Shown here: in pieces, positions 86-6,880 of the stretch
How the letters are laid out: the number at the start of each line of letters is the position of its first letter
Position numbering within the stretch: the first letter of the stretch is position 1
Assembly: GCA_902795765.1 (NCBI GenBank)
Contig: CADBMQ010000037.1
Span: 1-10,316, forward strand
Source: Oscillospiraceae bacterium
GTDB lineage: Bacteria > Bacillota > Clostridia > Oscillospirales > Acutalibacteraceae
Reading direction: 5' to 3'
DNA length: 10,316 bases
Notes under the pieces: model-generated
Database searches by the model: none
What the model saw: only the letters and a program-made list of their open reading frames with translations
Told to the model about the DNA's origin: nothing
Position numbers and translations under genes: made by a program

Positions 86-910
86 TTACAAGATTTGTTT
101 CAAACGCTCTTTCGCAATATCACACCAACGCTGTTCAAGTTCAATTCCGATCCAGCGGATCTTGTGACCCTGTTTATTCAACTTTTCACAGCAGACGCCC
201 AATGTACCAGAACCATGAAAGGGGTCAAGTATAATCCCTTCATAAAACCCATCGTTATTCTTTGGACAATAAGCCTTGATCAACTCTGTTATTAAGGATT
301 CTGGTTTTTGTGTTGGATGCGGCGTCTTTTCTCCTTGGTATAATTTTCCTGCAAGAGTTGGGAAAGCCCACACGTCGCCACGCATTGCACCTAACGGATT
401 GGGTTCCCATTTTACACGTTCTCCGCGAGAGTTTTTATAATAAACGGGATTTTTTAATCGTTCCGTACTCTTATAGGGGACACGCACATCATCAACATTA
501 TAGGTCCATTTTTTAGGAGATTTGGAAAACCACAAAAAAGGTTCATACTGAGTCAAAGGTGCGGTGGTCAGCCTACTGAATCCATTTTCATAATACCAAA
601 TGTTCATGCGCCTATAATTCAATCCGGATTCATACATAATAGACTGCACAAAACCAATATAGTGATGAATTCCGAACCAGATAAGACTACCGTTTTGGCA
701 GAGGAGATCTCGGCAAAGCGCGATTCTTCTTCGGGTTACGGCCAAAAACTCATCCAGCGACAGCTTATCGCTGTCATTGCCAAAGTCCTTATTTAGGTTA
801 TATGGTGGATCTGTTAAAATAAGATCAACTTTCAATCCGCTATCAAGCATTTCTTGCAGAAGGATATCAGAGTCGCCGCATATAATTCCATTGTAATTCA
901 TGCCGATCAC
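86..910 (-). CDS. Beta-class site-specific DNA methyltransferase (second methylase of the R-M locus)
   Basis: This is an S-adenosylmethionine-dependent DNA amino-methyltransferase of about 274 residues, expected to methylate N6 of adenine or N4 of cytosine. The catalytic motif IV DPPYNL lies at residues 34-39, motif X HPTQKP at about 198-203, and the SAM-binding motif I DPFHGSGT at 229-236. Catalytic motif before SAM motif, with the presumed target-recognition stretch between them, is the beta-class order. DPPY slightly favours adenine, but the base cannot be proven. The start overlaps the upstream methylase stop: GTG at 910-908 shares bases with that gene's TGA at 909-907 and has an AAAGGA six bases before it. 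The ATG at 901-899 is an alternative start. Either way the two methylases are translationally coupled. Two distinct methylases next to one nuclease locus usually mean that each strand of an asymmetric site is modified by its own enzyme. Confidence 0.93.
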   Translation of the reverse strand: MIGMNYNGIICGDSDILLQEMLDSGLKVDLILTDPPYNLNKDFGNDSDKLSLDEFLAVTRRRIALCRDLLCQNGSLIWFGIHHYIGFVQSIMYESGLNYRRMNIWYYENGFSRLTTAPLTQYEPFLWFSKSPKKWTYNVDDVRVPYKSTERLKNPVYYKNSRGERVKWEPNPLGAMRGDVWAFPTLAGKLYQGEKTPHPTQKPESLITELIKAYCPKNNDGFYEGIILDPFHGSGTLGVCCEKLNKQGHKIRWIGIELEQRWCDIAKERLKQIL

Positions 911-2046
911 TTCTTATCCTTTCTGAAAATCAGAATATATTGATGGTGGATATTCTCAACATAAGCGAAAGGATAACCGTAAGGGAGCAACGTTTTGTGG
1001 TTTTGCAGAAGAACTTTAACGCCCTGTAAAGTCACTCGATACCCATCGCTGGTTTCGCGTTTGTTCATTGCCTGTATTAAATCACTATGAAAGCTGATGA
1101 ATTCAGATTTGTTTCTGAAATCAGAAACAACTAAACACATATATTTCTTAGGGCGCAAAACACGTGCACACTCCATAAATATATCATCGACCAAAATCTC
1201 AAGGAATTCTTCGTACGATCCTACATTTGCCAAATCGTTTTCATCGTCGTCAGAATAGTTCGTAGCAAGATTGTTGGCCACGCGCTCCTTCATAACTTTA
1301 TGATCCGCTTTTTTATTGAGGATGGACCAATATGGAGGGCTGGTTACCATAAAATCAAATGAGCTACTAGGGAAGCGTTTTAATTCCTCTCTCGAATCGC
1401 CCAAAATGAATTCGTGTTTTTCTGAGGTTCCTTCACCAACTTCAACCTCAAGGCGCTGAACAGCTAAGTCTCGCCAGCGGGGTTGCAATTCTATGCTTGT
1501 GCATAGACGGCCCTCTAATTCACAGGCTTTGGCAGTAGAGCCTACACCACCAAAGGGATCCAAAACGCGCATACCCTTTTTTGTGAAAAAAGTAATGAGA
1601 TGCGCTATATCCTGGAAAGAGTAAGGTGCAGGATGTTGACGCTCGATTTGAGCGTGTGGATGTTTTGCCCCTAACCCTTTTTGATAAAAAAAGCTTTTTG
1701 TTTCCGGCAACCATTGTGAGCCGTTCAAATCATTCAATGTGTTTCTGGGATCAACAGGCTTGTCATCTGCAGCAGGGATCTCATCTTCGATATCAGCGGT
1801 ATCGGTCATTGAAGGCATTGAACTCTCTGTTTCTGCCGTAGGCTTTAACATATACGGGTTTTGAGGAGCTGTAATATCTTTGCTGCTTTCTTTAAACGCC
1901 TTTAATTGAGCAACCTCAAAACGACGCTGCCCTCCTGGGGTCTTTGAGGGTTGGAGAATGCCCTGTTCAATCATTCTGTAAACAGTAGAAATACTAACTC
2001 CAAGTATTTCTGCTGCTTTTTTTGTTCCAACTATTTTATCGGACAT
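907..2046 (-). CDS. DNA methyltransferase with N-terminal excisionase/MerR-like HTH domain
   Basis: This 379-residue protein joins a DNA-binding domain to a DNA methyltransferase. Residues about 4-51 form an excisionase/MerR-like helix-turn-helix (VGTKKAAEILGVSISTVYRM, then a PGGQRRF wing). An acidic, low-complexity linker of about 50 residues follows. A motif X-like HPAPYSFQDI lies at about 138-147, the SAM-binding motif I DPFGGVGST at 163-171, and the catalytic motif IV TSPPY at 235-239. TSPPY is common in N4-cytosine methylases and is also found in N6-adenine ones. The frame is open up to base 2118, but I chose ATG 2046 because the HTH begins there, an AAAGG lies about 11 bases upstream, and a strong promoter at 2087-2115 would start transcription near 2080, after the upstream start at 2118. 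An ATG at 2076 would be almost leaderless. The HTH may repress its own promoter, as the N-terminal HTH of M.SsoII and M.EcoRII does, or may help target binding. Confidence 0.9.
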   Translation of the reverse strand: MSDKIVGTKKAAEILGVSISTVYRMIEQGILQPSKTPGGQRRFEVAQLKAFKESSKDITAPQNPYMLKPTAETESSMPSMTDTADIEDEIPAADDKPVDPRNTLNDLNGSQWLPETKSFFYQKGLGAKHPHAQIERQHPAPYSFQDIAHLITFFTKKGMRVLDPFGGVGSTAKACELEGRLCTSIELQPRWRDLAVQRLEVEVGEGTSEKHEFILGDSREELKRFPSSSFDFMVTSPPYWSILNKKADHKVMKERVANNLATNYSDDDENDLANVGSYEEFLEILVDDIFMECARVLRPKKYMCLVVSDFRNKSEFISFHSDLIQAMNKRETSDGYRVTLQGVKVLLQNHKTLLPYGYPFAYVENIHHQYILIFRKDKK

Positions 2047-2086
2047 AAAGTAATCTGCCTTTCTATGCGTTAACATTACGACTATC

Positions 2087-2115
2087 AGTATACCACTATA
2101 GCTGAAACTTGTCAA
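2087..2115 (-). promoter_or_regulatory. Sigma-A-type promoter for the two methyltransferase genes
   Basis: On the minus strand a perfect -35 TTGACA (2115-2110) is followed by a 17-base spacer and a -10 TATACT (2092-2087). Transcription would begin near 2080, leaving a leader of about 34 bases before the ATG at 2046. The promoter lies between the iron-sulfur protein gene and the methyltransferase, so the modification genes can be transcribed apart from the nuclease genes. No terminator separates it from the upstream operon, so read-through is also likely. Confidence 0.8.
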
Positions 2116-2141
2116 CACTATTCAACACTTATCAAACATTT
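2112..2141. repeat. Three tandem 10-bp direct repeats over the methylase promoter -35
   Basis: On the plus strand the units are TCAACACTAT (2112-2121), TCAACACTTA (2122-2131) and the degenerate TCAAACATTT (2132-2141). The 10-base period places the units on the same face of the helix, as in an operator bound by repeated protein units. The first copy overlaps the -35 of the methylase promoter. The array exactly fills the space up to the stop codon of the iron-sulfur protein gene (2142-2144). Its role as an operator is inferred; the methylase HTH domain and the Xre regulator are the candidate ligands. Confidence 0.5.
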
Positions 2142-3185
2142 CTATTTCATGGGCTCTAAAATCCCCAACAGTTTATCGCTTACTTGTATATCTCTGTCAA
2201 GTTGCCAAGCTATAACCGAGCGAAGATCCATATTGTCATAATCTAAGTAATAAGTAACATCATCTGGCATAAGTAAGCAGCCGTTCCAGTTCAACAACAT
2301 TAAAGCACCAATTGTTATAGTGCTGATAGGAATATCCTCAACGGTTTTTACGTCTTTTACTACCTGCCAATATCCCTGTCGAGCATTGGGAAGTTGTAGA
2401 CATATAACCAGAGGCGTATTCTCATCTTTTTCAATACCGTACCTTGTATATAGCACTGCGATGTCATCCAGAATTCCGCGAGAAGCATCTAATGTTTCTC
2501 GGCCAAATTCAACTTCTACAGCACCGAAACAGTTATCCGCGGAAGCATAAACTGCATCCATTCTGGTATACACATCTCCAATACGACGCATGGCACTTCG
2601 GCAGCCGAGAGAAATCAGAAGATTTCGTGCAATGATATTATGGTAATTACTTCTAATGCCCATCAATTTTTCATAGATACCCTCGAGAGGCTGGTCGGAC
2701 TCCATGACGGAGATCCCACTTTTTCTAATATCCTCAAGTTCCTCGATTTGCTGCTTCTGCAATATAACTGTTGCATTATCGGTGCTACGTCGAATTTGAT
2801 TATCCGAGATGTCTTTATTTACTTTGACAACGCCATCGAAATAAACGGCACCTATTGGGCATCGATTGATGCATATGCCGCAATTTATACATTTTTGTGT
2901 ATCTATGATAGGCGTGTCGGAATCGGAGTCCCATTGGATTGCTTCAACGGGGCATACATCCAACGACTTGTCATTGGGAAAGTTTTCTACCTCTCCACAC
3001 ATAATATCTTTAGGATCAAAACGCATACATTTAGGGTTCGTGCAACCAATACACCCCAACTGCATATTGCGGCCATCAGGGAAGTGCGCTATTGCCGGAG
3101 CGTCAGGCCTATATTCAATGTGCGAGGGTATCGCTTGAAGAATGGAAATGTTTCTTCTATTAGCAGTTTTCGAGAATACGCGCAT
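2142..3185 (-). CDS. Two-cluster ferredoxin domain fused to a possible PD-(D/E)XK-like nuclease subunit
   Basis: This 347-residue protein starts with an iron-sulfur domain. Cysteines lie at 45, 48, 53 and 63, a CP pair at 78, and a classic CxxCxxCxxxCP at 99-110 (C99, C102, C105, C109). Eight of these nine would ligate two [4Fe-4S] clusters in a bacterial ferredoxin fold. The rest, about 130-347, is not ferredoxin: a charged helical stretch (about 139-155), then a helix-strand region with TRMD (D210), GAVEVEF (E224, E226), and TPLVICLQL. D210 followed 14 residues later by E-V-E resembles an ExE variant of the PD-(D/E)XK core and parallels D452...E465-I-K467 in the upstream neighbour. The start overlaps the end of that nuclease gene by 26 bases and has GGAGGG eight bases before it. 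I infer a second subunit of the restriction enzyme. The iron-sulfur assignment is solid; the nuclease assignment was made by eye and is tentative. An electron-transfer or redox-sensing accessory protein is the alternative. Confidence 0.85.
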   Translation of the reverse strand: MRVFSKTANRRNISILQAIPSHIEYRPDAPAIAHFPDGRNMQLGCIGCTNPKCMRFDPKDIMCGEVENFPNDKSLDVCPVEAIQWDSDSDTPIIDTQKCINCGICINRCPIGAVYFDGVVKVNKDISDNQIRRSTDNATVILQKQQIEELEDIRKSGISVMESDQPLEGIYEKLMGIRSNYHNIIARNLLISLGCRSAMRRIGDVYTRMDAVYASADNCFGAVEVEFGRETLDASRGILDDIAVLYTRYGIEKDENTPLVICLQLPNARQGYWQVVKDVKTVEDIPISTITIGALMLLNWNGCLLMPDDVTYYLDYDNMDLRSVIAWQLDRDIQVSDKLLGILEPMK

Positions 3186-4887
3186 TCATCAATCCCTCCA
3201 ATTCATATAATTTTTCTTTGTCAAATCCCTTTTCATCTACTAAAATGCTTATGGATAGTGAAAGCAAAGAGTTCAGATCAATTACGCCTATTTTGTAACC
3301 GTAGGTTGCTTTAATATCTGAAATCAATCTACTGACCTCAGCACGTTCATTAGGCATATGATACCCAACAGCAAGAGTAGACACTTCGGGGGTTGTAGAA
3401 TGAGTCTGACGTGAAAGAAGAATTATTTTGTTCTCCAGCGCCTGCCGGATCGCCTTGATCGAAAGATGTTGTTCTTCTGTAGGAGATTTAATCTCAATTG
3501 GAATACTCCGAACCGGATCATCAATAATAGCGTCCCATCGCGCACCATTATCACCAGGTCGAGAGAACGAACATTTGAATCCCATTATTTTAAAGAGTGT
3601 AGCAATTAAGGGATAAAAAGTTGTCTGAGTAGCATCTGAATAATATTCAAAAAGCAGAGCTACAATTTCGTTGCTGGAATAGCCGGATGCCAACAAATCA
3701 TTGACTCGACCAAGGAAATCAACATCTTCGGGTTCTGTCAATAGCTCTGTGGCGGCACCTTCCGGAATGTTTAAGTTCCATACCTGCATTGCCGCAAGCG
3801 CTTCACGCTCATTTACAGCGCTTTCAAATGTATCAAAACTGTGATGTGAATCAGTTCCGACTCCCAGCTGGATACCAAGGGCAGCTTCAACACGCTGCCG
3901 TTTCAATGTCTGGCAGGGAGAGAACAGTAAATCTTTGTTGCCGATTATGTGCATACAAGCAGACTTGTCTGCCTGTATTTCTTCTTCCACGCTGGACATA
4001 TCATAGCCAGATCTTTGCAACATGGAGTAGGTACCTAACCGAATTAAAGCTTTTTGAGTGTCCTCGTCAAGCTGCTCATATTCGTCCAGCCGCATATCAT
4101 GCATATCCTTAATCGCATCATATACTTCGCGTCCATGTTCCGTGATACGAAGGCAGGACATTGATCTTCCATAAAGTGTTCTGTCAGTTACGCTTTCAAC
4201 CCAATTGCAGCTTTTCATAAAAGCAATAGGCAGACGTGTGCAATTATCCACAGGATCAAGTTTCACACCAAGGCTATCAGCCAAATCCGAAAAAGCGCTC
4301 ACCAAACGACGCTTATCTCCACGGATAGAGCGAATAAAACGAAGCATATTTTGATATTCATCCTCATCTTCGTCGTTAATGCTCATAGGGCCTAGACATA
4401 GTTCGTGTTTATACATCATACCGTCTAGATCAATAAGTGTTCTGAGAGCACATTTGAAAAATCGAACTTTTTCAGTATAGCTCATGTTGTCAGTCAATTG
4501 TGTGGGATTATTAATTCCGAGAACACACTGTTCATACAAGCGTGAACAATCTCCAACAGACAGAGCTACATGGATACCAATGTAAGTAAATACCAGCGGA
4601 TATGAAGATTCTGTACTATATGGTGTTACCCACCCAAGCATACGAAAAACTTCCGCATACATCTTTGCGTTCATTTTTGCGGAATTCATGCTCTCTTGAT
4701 CGGTATGGCTAAGACGTATAGCATCGTCGCCAGCATAACCGTACGCTGTCATCAGTTTACTTTGGGCAATGACCACTGCCATATCATCTAACGTAAAATA
4801 TGCTTGAGACCCAAGCGCAGCATAGAGCTGTTTTATCACCTGGATCTGTGTGGAATACTGCGTACCGGGATTTCTAAATCTAATCAT
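3160..4887 (-). CDS. Type II/IIS-like restriction endonuclease, PD-(D/E)XK
   Basis: This 575-residue protein is the likely cleaving enzyme of the locus. Near the C terminus, helix FYPLIATLFKIMGF (424-437) precedes RWDAIIDD (D452) and IPIEIKSPTEE (E465, K467), then a helix SIKAIRQALENKIILLSR. D...ExK after an amphipathic helix is the PD-(D/E)XK restriction-endonuclease core. The long N-terminal part (about 1-400) is mostly helical, with winged-helix-like stretches at about 30-110 (including FRMLGWVTPY) and 230-260 (LRITEHGREVYDAI). It is the likely recognition region. An N-terminal recognition part and a C-terminal nuclease are the layout of many type IIS enzymes; AlwI-like enzymes come to mind but I cannot confirm that family. 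The ATG at 4887 has AGGAGG seven bases upstream and begins 20 bases after the regulator's stop. The gene's 3' end overlaps the next gene by 26 bases, which suggests matched synthesis of the two proteins. Confidence 0.85.
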   Translation of the reverse strand: MIRFRNPGTQYSTQIQVIKQLYAALGSQAYFTLDDMAVVIAQSKLMTAYGYAGDDAIRLSHTDQESMNSAKMNAKMYAEVFRMLGWVTPYSTESSYPLVFTYIGIHVALSVGDCSRLYEQCVLGINNPTQLTDNMSYTEKVRFFKCALRTLIDLDGMMYKHELCLGPMSINDEDEDEYQNMLRFIRSIRGDKRRLVSAFSDLADSLGVKLDPVDNCTRLPIAFMKSCNWVESVTDRTLYGRSMSCLRITEHGREVYDAIKDMHDMRLDEYEQLDEDTQKALIRLGTYSMLQRSGYDMSSVEEEIQADKSACMHIIGNKDLLFSPCQTLKRQRVEAALGIQLGVGTDSHHSFDTFESAVNEREALAAMQVWNLNIPEGAATELLTEPEDVDFLGRVNDLLASGYSSNEIVALLFEYYSDATQTTFYPLIATLFKIMGFKCSFSRPGDNGARWDAIIDDPVRSIPIEIKSPTEEQHLSIKAIRQALENKIILLSRQTHSTTPEVSTLAVGYHMPNERAEVSRLISDIKATYGYKIGVIDLNSLLSLSISILVDEKGFDKEKLYELEGLMNARILENC

Positions 4888-4907
4888 GCTGAAACCTCCT
4901 GGTTATT

Positions 4908-5114
4908 TTATAGACCGGCAAACAATTCACTTAATGAAACGCCCAGTCCATCAGCGATCTTCTTAATATTGCATATGGATATATTTCGCTTCCCGGCCTC
5001 AACAGAAGCAAAATATGTTCGGTCCATCCCTATGCTTAGTGCAAATTTTTCTTGACTAATACCGATTTTATTACGCGTCTCTTTAATGCGCTCTCCAAGT
5101 TCCTTTGTAATCAT
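4908..5114 (-). CDS. Xre-family HTH regulator, likely restriction controller (C) protein
   Basis: This 68-residue protein is almost entirely one Cro/C1-type helix-turn-helix: ELGERIKETRNKIGISQEKFA, then SIGMDRTYFASVEAGKRNIS, ending in LGVSLSELFAGL. The size and pattern (ISQE, RTYFASVEAGKRN, LGVSLSELF) match controller proteins of type II restriction systems, which bind an operator at their own promoter and time nuclease expression. The frame extends upstream to 5165, but ATG 5114 is chosen because GGAGG lies nine bases before it, because the HTH starts there, and because the proposed -10 at 5142-5137 would sit inside the longer reading. It is the first gene of the operon, 20 bases before the nuclease gene, as in many C-R pairs. 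Control of the methylase promoter as well is possible but not shown. Confidence 0.88.
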   Translation of the reverse strand: MITKELGERIKETRNKIGISQEKFALSIGMDRTYFASVEAGKRNISICNIKKIADGLGVSLSELFAGL

Positions 5115-5136
5115 AAAGATACACCTCCGATATAAT

Positions 5137-5165
5137 ATTATACAAGTATACGGATTATAAAACAA
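5137..5165 (-). promoter_or_regulatory. Promoter and candidate operator of the regulator-nuclease operon
   Basis: On the minus strand a -35 TTGTTT (5165-5160) is separated by 17 bases from a perfect -10 TATAAT (5142-5137). Several symmetric or repeated sequences overlap it: a 12-base perfect palindrome TATAATATTATA at 5131-5142 over the -10, a GTATAC palindrome at 5146-5151 in the spacer, and two copies of ACGGATT (plus strand, 5150-5156 and 5165-5171) spaced 15 bases apart. Such clustering fits a controller-protein operator; which element is bound cannot be told from sequence. Confidence 0.6.
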
Positions 5166-5336: not shown

Positions 5337-6476
5337 ATGAGAACTTACACCCAAGAAGAAAAGCAAGCGGTCATTGACTGTGTTATATCCGGTGAGCCGT
5401 CGGCGCGTATCCTTGCTGACACCGGCATACCCAAGAGTACATTTTACAATTGGTTACGCATTTATAGAGGGGAGCAAAACGCTGCCAACAGGAGAACAGT
5501 GGACATCCGCAATTTTCATTTGCTTGAAAACAAAGTTACACGTTTGGAGAGTATCGTTGAAATTCTCAAATCTGCAACCTGCACGTCGAGATCACCATTG
5601 AGACAACGGCTATATGCTGCTGAACAGCTTTACGGCAAATATAATGTGCATGTAATCTGTGATGCATTTGACATTCCCCGCGGAACATTTTACAACCACG
5701 TTCTCCGTAACAAGAAGGACAACACGTGGTATGCGAAACGTCGGGAAGAACTACGGCTTCGCATACAGGAGATATACGATGAAAGCAATCAGATCTTTGT
5801 TGCTGCCAAAATTGCGGCAGTTATGAAAAGCGAAGGATTCAAAGTCAGTAACGAAATGGTACGCACGCTTATGCGTGATATGGGGTTAGTCAGCATTCGT
5901 CAATCGGCGAAGAAATTATACGAGGACGAAGGACGCAAATACAAAAATCACCTCAACCAAGAGTTTGACACGTGCAAGCCGAACGAAGTGTGGGTTAGCG
6001 ATGTTACATATTTCAAGTACGGAGAAAACGCTTATTACATTTGCGTGATTATTGACTTGTTTTCACGTATGGTCGTGGGCTATAAAATCGGAAAGACCAA
6101 CAGCACGCAAATTGTAAAATCAACTTTTCAAATTGCCTATAAAGCTCGTCAGCCAGATTCGAGTTTAGTTTTCCATACCGACCGTGGCGGTAACTACCGT
6201 TCCAAAACGATGAACGACTATATGCGGTCACTGCACATCACGCACTCCTTTTCAAGAGCGCACGTGCCGTATGACAATTCTGTAATGGAATCGTTCTTTG
6301 CTTCTTTGAAGCGCGAGGAATTGTATCGGACGAAGTATCGTTCGGAGGCAGACTTCCGAAGTGCGGTGGACAAGTACATAGTTTTTTACAATACCAAGCG
6401 ACCACACAAGAAGCTGCAATACAAGACTCCCGAACAGAAGGAAGAGGAATATGCCTTGAAGGACGCGGGTTTATAA
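5337..6476 (+). CDS. IS3-family transposase, OrfA and OrfB in one reading frame
   Basis: This 379-residue DDE transposase catalyses cut-and-join movement of an insertion sequence. An HTH lies at residues 8-42 (ILADTGIPKSTFYNWLRIYR), followed by a short coiled stretch (about 62-78, LENKVTRLESIVEIL) typical of the OrfA leucine zipper. A second HTH-like HTH_21 region lies at about 105-185 (CDAFDIPRGTFYNHV ... MVRTLMRDMGL). The rve integrase core has D222 (VSDVTYF), D282 (HTDRGGNY) and E318 (NSVMESFF). The D282-E318 gap of 35 residues is the IS3 D35E hallmark, and YNTKRPH at 351-357 is the usual C-terminal signature. Most IS3 elements need a -1 frameshift to make OrfAB; here it is one continuous frame and all catalytic residues are present, so the protein looks intact. 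Confidence 0.93.
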   Translation: MRTYTQEEKQAVIDCVISGEPSARILADTGIPKSTFYNWLRIYRGEQNAANRRTVDIRNFHLLENKVTRLESIVEILKSATCTSRSPLRQRLYAAEQLYGKYNVHVICDAFDIPRGTFYNHVLRNKKDNTWYAKRREELRLRIQEIYDESNQIFVAAKIAAVMKSEGFKVSNEMVRTLMRDMGLVSIRQSAKKLYEDEGRKYKNHLNQEFDTCKPNEVWVSDVTYFKYGENAYYICVIIDLFSRMVVGYKIGKTNSTQIVKSTFQIAYKARQPDSSLVFHTDRGGNYRSKTMNDYMRSLHITHSFSRAHVPYDNSVMESFFASLKREELYRTKYRSEADFRSAVDKYIVFYNTKRPHKKLQYKTPEQKEEEYALKDAGL

Positions 6477-6578
6477 GACACGTGCAGATAGACTGATGGG
6501 TTCGAAAAGGTTTGTTTTTTAATCTTCTAATTGCAAAATTTAAGATTTTCTGTTTTTAGTCCATCTGATAAAAAGAAA

Positions 6579-6600
6579 ATGCGACCTCGAAAAGCCGCAT
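6579..6600 (-). terminator. Rho-independent terminator downstream of the tRNA operon (distal)
   Basis: Read on the minus strand, ATGCG pairs with CGCAT and the stem continues through G-T, C-G and T-A type pairs to a TTCG tetraloop. It is followed directly by TTTTCTTTTTAT. The T-run is on the minus-strand side only, so it terminates transcripts coming from the tRNA genes rather than from the transposase. Confidence 0.7.
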
Positions 6601-6623
6601 AAATACTGGGTTTTATAATAAAA

Positions 6624-6666
6624 ACACCATTGAGTCTGAACCCCTGGGTTCAGATTTCAATGGTGT
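6624..6666 (-). terminator. Long hairpin terminator just after tRNA-Tyr
   Basis: ACACCATTGA (6624-6633) pairs with TCAATGGTGT (6657-6666), and inside it TCTGAACC pairs with GGTTCAGA around a small CCTG-like loop, with one bulged T. The minus-strand read continues as TTTTATTATAAAA, a terminator tail. The plus-strand read continues as CTTTATAT, so weak termination of rightward transcription is also possible. It begins eight bases after the CCA end of tRNA-Tyr. Confidence 0.75.
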
Positions 6667-6673
6667 CTTTATA

Positions 6674-6758
6674 TGGTGGGAGCGGGTGGATTCGAACCAC
6701 CGAAGTCAGAGACAACAGATTTACAGTCTGCCCCCTTTGGCCACTCGGGAACACTCCC
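6674..6758 (-). tRNA. tRNA-Tyr (anticodon GTA)
   Basis: The minus strand folds as a tRNA of 85 bases with the CCA end encoded. Acceptor GGGAGTG pairs with CGCTCCC, with an A discriminator. The anticodon stem carries the loop CTGTAAA with anticodon GTA (plus-strand TAC at 6722-6724). The long variable arm is the class II feature of bacterial tRNA-Tyr. The T arm is GGTGG-TTCGAAT-CCACC. It is the second gene of a two-tRNA transcript. Confidence 0.97.
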
Positions 6759-6790
6759 ACATATTAAATTTTTTGCTTATAAAAAGCAAA

Positions 6791-6866
6791 TGGAGCTGGT
6801 GGACGGACTCGAACCCCCGACCTGCTGATTACAAATCAGCTGCTCTACCAACTGAGCTACACCAGC
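6791..6866 (-). tRNA. tRNA-Thr (anticodon TGT)
   Basis: The 76-base minus-strand gene has acceptor GCTGGTG paired with CACCAGC, a T discriminator and an encoded CCA. The D arm contains AGCTCAGTTGGTAGAGC. The anticodon stem GCTGA/TCAGC holds the loop TTTGTAA with anticodon TGT (plus-strand ACA at 6831-6833). The T arm has the standard GGTTCGAGTCC. It lies 32 bases upstream of tRNA-Tyr in the same transcript. Confidence 0.97.
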
Positions 6867-6880
6867 GTTAACGCTTAATT

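Follow-up and report, generated by a model that had tools for sequence, protein, structure and literature searches.

A 10,316-nucleotide (nt) stretch of contig CADBMQ010000037.1 from an Oscillospiraceae bacterium (the window), part of an incomplete assembly of 268 contigs, encodes a 347-residue protein, R2, in which an N-terminal ferredoxin domain is fused to a nuclease domain of predicted PD-(D/E)XK fold. Its gene lies between that of a larger nuclease (R1) and those of two methyltransferases (M1 and M2), and R2 is very probably the nuclease subunit of a two-subunit restriction-modification (R-M) enzyme. The fuller explanation, in which R2 serves as the small, cleaving partner in a heterodimeric Type IIT/IIS-like enzyme and carries the ferredoxin as a docking module, is somewhat more probable than its negation. 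For the ferredoxin alone, a structural or docking role is favoured, with about an even chance of being right. A ferredoxin joined to a nuclease in an R-M locus had been suggested by a sequence-only reading of this DNA, and the suggestion is supported by fold, conservation, homology to R1 and gene linkage.

In the ferredoxin domain, R2 scores 28.7 bits against the Pfam family Fer4_7 and 26.4 bits against Fer4, above the respective cut-offs of 27 and 21.1, and the fold predicted for its N-terminal part matches ferredoxin subunits (the WOR5 small subunit and HycB3). Among the 25 of 94 NCBIfam matches listed, the best stretches fall in residues 28-153 or nearby ferredoxin residues. When the letters of R2 were shuffled 100,000 times, the motifs CX2CX4C and CX2CX2CX3C turned up jointly only once; these shuffles, together with conservation over the aligned rows, rule out a chance origin of the cysteines. 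The pairing of the eight ligands into two clusters is presumably that of canonical ferredoxins. C45, C48, C53, and C63 are each present in 120 of 121 aligned rows, as are D210 and E224, while C78, C99, C102, C105, C109, and E226 are present in all 121. A larger alignment of 249 rows was compiled from two homologue searches and ten further loci. All eight cluster cysteines are kept in 150 of its 162 rows spanning residues 45-226, the three ferredoxin-less loci described below (L017-L019) having been removed beforehand. By eye, the 12 rows without one or more of them comprise truncated starts (P0279, P0289, P0315, P0329, P0331, and P0332), scrambled or chimeric sequences (P0247, P0270, P0326, P0340, and P0357), and one internal deletion (P0263).

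The same eight cysteines stand in ferredoxin order in all 11 ferredoxin-bearing loci that were read as DNA. C63 is a cysteine in five of these and another residue in six, which rules it out as a required ligand. The two-cluster cysteine set named by the sequence-only reading is confirmed, and the positions given there (C45, C48, C53, C63, C78, C99, C102, C105, C109, D210, E224, and E226) are all correct in the 347-residue frame. Outside its ligands the ferredoxin domain drifts faster than the nuclease domain (0.589 versus 0.781). Its net charge ranges from -9 to +1 over the 11 loci, a mixed picture that speaks neither for nor against DNA binding; dN/dS by domain was uninformative, with synonymous sites mostly saturated.

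With regard to the C-terminal half of R2, no Pfam family matched it, and no restriction-enzyme family for it was among the 25 of 32 Pfam families listed in a scan of 64 members. Structure prediction followed by a fold search gives a PD-(D/E)XK core with an acidic active site, in agreement with the earlier assignment of D210 and E224-x-E226. This D/E/E set is kept in 225 of the 237 rows that span the active site in the 249-row alignment. Five of the 12 exceptions have a single change in a normal setting (P0092, E224K; P0093, D210N; P0273, E226K; P0284, E226D; P0288, D210G), and the rest are deletions, scrambled rows, and the very weak hit P0358. P0273 (185 residues) is a natural relative in which E-I-K replaces E-x-E, the textbook E-x-K form. 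A set of 27 diverse rows, 28-73% identical to the window R2, shows no change at C78, C99, C102, C105, C109, D210, E224, or E226. A glutamate at the usual lysine position of the active site is also found in BamHI. Three sequence profiles reached no solved nuclease, and the likeness to solved nucleases is one of fold only. The one BFVD match with E < 0.001 covers 129 columns and is a 292-residue phage protein named 'restriction endonuclease'. No recognition domain was recognised in R2.

The nuclease domain of R2 aligns with the C-terminal catalytic domain of R1 at an hhalign E value of 7e-14, which none of 200 shuffles came near. Judged by sequence comparison, it is a diverged paralogue of that domain, and the local resemblance to the D452/E465/K467 region of R1 noticed earlier is one between homologous domains. 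The D/E/K motif of R1 and the D/E/E motif of R2 occur in all 14 loci read as DNA and represent, by motif, two different catalytic sites. The structure model of R1 is poor, probably because its 28-row alignment is too uniform. In one relative of 290 residues (P0270), the first ~110 residues resemble the R1 N-terminus and the rest the R2 nuclease; it looks like a deletion fusion of neighbouring R1 and R2 genes, or an assembly artefact.

At an E value of at most 1e-3, a protein search with R2 returned 332 homologues, of which the best 120 are listed, and this rules out a fusion peculiar to this genome. A further search used only the nuclease part, under a length rule excluding full-length proteins, and returned 120 hits. 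The 14 distinct loci are the window, L001 (Oscillospiraceae), L002 (Clostridia), L003 (Selenomonadaceae), L012, L013, and, from viral contigs, L015-L019, L026, L031, and L033. L026 and L027 share the same genes and count as one locus; L030 and L040 were omitted as R1 is cut by the contig end; L005 and L011 match the ferredoxin part only. Repeats were merged: L006 and L039 (apparently the same as L002), L004 and L008 (the window), L007 and L023 (in L013), L009, L010, and L014 (in L012), and L020-L022, L024, L025, L028, L029, L032, and L034-L038 (repeats of L015-L019).

R1 precedes R2 in 14 of 14 loci, in frames overlapping by 8-41 nt when counted from the first start codon (26 nt in the window). 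Both methyltransferase genes, assigned by eye from their likeness to the window pair, are present in 13, the contig of L017 ending after R2; the homologues do therefore occur beside R-M genes, as the sequence-only reading expected. The order is R1-R2-M1-M2 in the window and L001-L003 and M1-M2-R1-R2 in L012, L018, and L019, while R1-R2 faces M2-M1 in L013, L015, L016, L026, L031, and L033. By eye, the flanks mostly differ between loci. Possible defence genes were seen beside the module in L001 (8104-9714, OLD-like ATPase/TOPRIM), L003 (732-3071, AAA_13), and L017 (3181-5004, AAA_23).

The system is rare and patchy. It was found in 3 of 391 genomes of the class, and in 1 of 63, 1 of 206, and 2 of 147 genomes of further sets, and R1 was found in 2 of 398 genomes of the phylum, each count including the genome on which the set was centred. 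A tblastn search of R1 or R2 against plasmids and phages gave no match, and a first scan of viral contigs with the close family gave no relative. The contig of L033, whose R2 (5846-6868) bears the ferredoxin, has a guanine-cytosine (GC) content of 0.61 and a portal gene that matches proteobacterial phages at <60% identity; therefore, the ferredoxin-bearing form may not be confined to Clostridia-like anaerobes.

The ferredoxin is present in R2 of 11 of the 14 loci and absent from one clade, L017, L018, and L019, in which R2 has 214-215 residues with a short N-terminus followed by the same nuclease domain and its D/E/E set. A Pfam scan of the L019 protein found nothing, whereas four ferredoxin-bearing relatives scanned alongside scored as Fer4. 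In a joint R1/R2 tree, provided that the root falls between R1 and R2, the 11 ferredoxin-bearing proteins group together (96/89), as do the three without it (96/92); the joint trees carry long-branch warnings. Either a single gain or a single loss of the ferredoxin would explain this grouping. Absence is claimed only for these three loci, where the DNA was read: the apparently ferredoxin-less proteins of 100-318 residues from the nuclease-part search were not counted, and several look like starts inside a longer gene (by eye, P0265 against P0308, and P0312 against P0311 and P0318). The modules of L013 (with ferredoxin) and L019 (without) have, by eye, closely similar neighbouring prophage genes (L013 2963-4834 and L019 7443-9308), and thus both versions can occupy the same kind of element. 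The shared neighbours perhaps mark a common cargo slot of Clostridia-type prophages. Since one clade does without it, the ferredoxin is probably not needed for the cleavage chemistry.

In BsrDI, BtsI, and BspD6I, sequence recognition and the cut in one strand fall to the larger subunit and the cut in the other strand to a smaller subunit without specificity; two methyltransferases generally accompany the enzyme (PMC4081073). It was also reported that ss.BspD6I is active only together with catalytically active Nt.BspD6I (PMC6261011). The window operon agrees with this plan. Briefly, R1 would recognise an asymmetric DNA site and nick one strand through its C-terminal D452/E465/K467 centre, R2 would dock on the R1-DNA complex and cut the other strand with D210/E224/E226, and M1 and M2 would protect the two strands of the site. 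In most loci read, a 2[4Fe-4S] ferredoxin would act as a cluster-dependent folding and docking module that holds R2 in the complex, and loss of the clusters would leave R1 as a nickase. Docking is the first choice because the domain retains its eight ligands but otherwise changes faster than the nuclease does, as would be expected if its clusters stabilise it for a contact or conformation.

The alternatives to this explanation are not all mutually exclusive. A redox switch would give an identical conservation pattern. Such a switch would keep the heterodimer, and on oxidation by oxygen, nitric oxide, or infection stress the enzyme would change from cutting both strands to nicking, or the other way round. 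The strict retention of all eight ligands over wide divergence agrees with it; moreover, large subunits of such enzymes can nick alone (PMC4081073), and therefore the consequence of losing R2 activity would be well defined. However, no redox partner gene was seen by eye in the open reading frame (ORF) lists of the loci, where no systematic search was made, and the similar prophage neighbours of L013 and L019 indicate that a switch is not needed there; we consider it unlikely. The statement that second-strand cleavage depends on a redox-active two-cluster ferredoxin, with the state of the clusters deciding whether incoming DNA is broken or nicked, can be put forward only tentatively. If the cysteines instead bound zinc, or one cluster and zinc, as a plain structural knob, there would be a precedent in a RecB-type nuclease of the DUF3799 family, in which zinc replaces the iron-sulfur (Fe-S) cluster (PMC3466216); but motifs of 4Fe-4S ferredoxin type that pass two Pfam cut-offs, and a predicted fold matching ferredoxin subunits, make this improbable.

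Two further proposals concern the nuclease itself. R2 might no longer cut DNA and might instead use its ferredoxin to carry electrons or to regulate, while housed in an R-M operon. Such a role is suggested by the glutamate in place of the usual lysine at position 226 and by the source names of relatives, the few of which that are not 'hypothetical protein' read ferredoxin, 4Fe-4S binding protein, PreA subunit, or hydrogenase component. This is very improbable, given that D/E/E is retained in nearly all rows, that conservation is higher in the nuclease domain than on the ferredoxin surface, and that the ferredoxin-less R2 retains exactly the nuclease domain. R1 and R2 could also be separate restriction enzymes, or form a complex unlike that of BspD6I, such as one in which an R2 homodimer cuts both strands, since the heterodimer is itself deduced from sequence. 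The overlapping frames in every locus, the homologous catalytic domains, the presence of two methyltransferases only, and the lack of a recognisable recognition domain in R2 speak against it, and we rate it as improbable.

Compared with known systems, the architecture appears to be a variant of the heterodimeric Type IIT enzymes rather than a new type of system, while the combination of a ferredoxin with an R-M nuclease subunit appears to be undescribed. No sequence-level similarity to the window pair was found in R.BspD6I/BstNBI (Nt.BspD6I and ss.BspD6I), a heterodimeric Type IIS/IIT enzyme, and the structure of its small subunit (2p14) is not among the 50 fold-search matches listed for R2. 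That subunit has 186 residues, with no Fe-S domain mentioned in the available text, whereas the window R2 has E-x-E. BsrDI and BtsI, compared by description rather than sequence, share with the window pair unequal subunits, two catalytic sites, and, as a rule, two methyltransferases (PMC4081073 and PMC2909958), and the available parts of their descriptions contain no Fe-S domain. Cas4, AddB, and Dna2 resemble R2 as nucleases with Fe-S cysteines in DNA processing or defence. However, Cas4 and AddB have four cysteines, one near the N-terminus and three C-terminal, around a RecB-type domain (PMC3466216), while R2 has eight in a separate N-terminal ferredoxin domain and belongs to an R-M locus. 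All eight precede the nuclease domain, which rules out a Cas4/AddB-like arrangement, as the sequence-only reading had held; C195 and C262, inside the nuclease domain, vary (149/232 and 195/245 rows). Bacterial 2[4Fe-4S] ferredoxins (Fer4_7; the WOR5 small subunit and HycB3) resemble the N-terminal part of R2 in cysteine pattern and in predicted fold, but R2 differs in its fusion to a nuclease and in having CX2CX4C as its first motif, with a long stretch between this motif and the CP cysteine. BrxP of type 4 bacteriophage exclusion (BREX) acts in defence and contains a ferredoxin-type 4Fe-4S region (PMC12839542); it is a phosphoadenosine phosphosulfate (PAPS) reductase, whereas R2 is a predicted nuclease. 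PADLOC reported only BrxP for R2, weakly (E 0.007 over residues 96-125). Searches of open-licence papers found no description of an iron-sulfur or ferredoxin restriction endonuclease, in line with the earlier claim, and in the available part of a large review of Type II enzymes (PMC4081073) no word starts with iron or Fe-S. The ferredoxin-bearing R2 is treated as an undescribed variant on this ground, the Cas4/AddB-type nucleases and BrxP being nearest to it.

Features of the R-M operon in the window (HTH, helix-turn-helix; aa, amino acids)
Feature	Position	Strand	Evidence
R2, small subunit, ferredoxin + predicted PD-(D/E)XK nuclease, 347 aa	2142..3185	-	ORF, Fer4, model/fold, conservation
R2 ferredoxin domain, residues 36-125, ligands C45 C48 C53 C78 C99 C102 C105 C109	2811..3080	-	Pfam + alignments
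R2 nuclease domain, residues 166-347, D210/E224/E226	2145..2690	-	model, fold, conservation
R1, large subunit, 575 aa, predicted recognition region + C-terminal PD-(D/E)XK (D452/E465/K467)	3160..4887	-	
M1 methyltransferase, 403 aa, N-terminal HTH_17, SPPY motif	907..2118	-	Pfam, NCBIfam, PADLOC
M2 N6_N4_Mtase, 274 aa, DPPY motif	86..910	-	Pfam, PADLOC
HTH_3 regulator, controller-type gene just before R1	4908..5165	-	

These five genes form a run on the minus strand (window 86-5165), transcribed in the order HTH_3 regulator, R1, R2, M1, and M2. The R2 frame (3185-2142) starts with ATG, and the plus strand there has 7 stops. The regulator has 85 residues from a TTG start or 68 from an internal ATG, and a similar gene also precedes R1 in L001 and L002. 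The solved relatives of M2 include the adenine enzymes MboIIA and DpnA, while M1 is possibly of N4-cytosine type. The HTH_17 domain of M1 is excisionase-type, and L016 and L026 have a separate small HTH-like gene beside M1; M1 also resembles the PADLOC models mad1 and mad2. Past the regulator, the window carries an integrase-core transposase, tRNA-Tyr, tRNA-Thr, SpoIIGA, and a sigma-70 family factor. The transposase (rve, HTH_21; 5337-6476, plus strand), which we take to be of IS3 type, adjoins the regulator end of the operon. The two tRNA genes lie at 6674-6866 on the minus strand, and the plus-strand ORF over them (6686-6871) is probably spurious. The presence of SpoIIGA and the sigma factor suggests that the host is probably a spore-former or the descendant of one.

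Restriction enzymes are among the best-studied DNA-cutting proteins, and a complete ferredoxin is found here in the predicted catalytic subunit of at least 150 sequences. Because the source names of the few named relatives are of ferredoxin or electron-transfer type, a nuclease family may be hidden under such names. It is debated whether Fe-S clusters in DNA enzymes have a structural or a regulatory role (PMC3466216), and the ferredoxin-less operons provide a natural control for this question. If redox-dependent cutting of the second strand were true, it would represent the first iron-sulfur-controlled restriction endonuclease, and would concern a whole branch of two-subunit enzymes.
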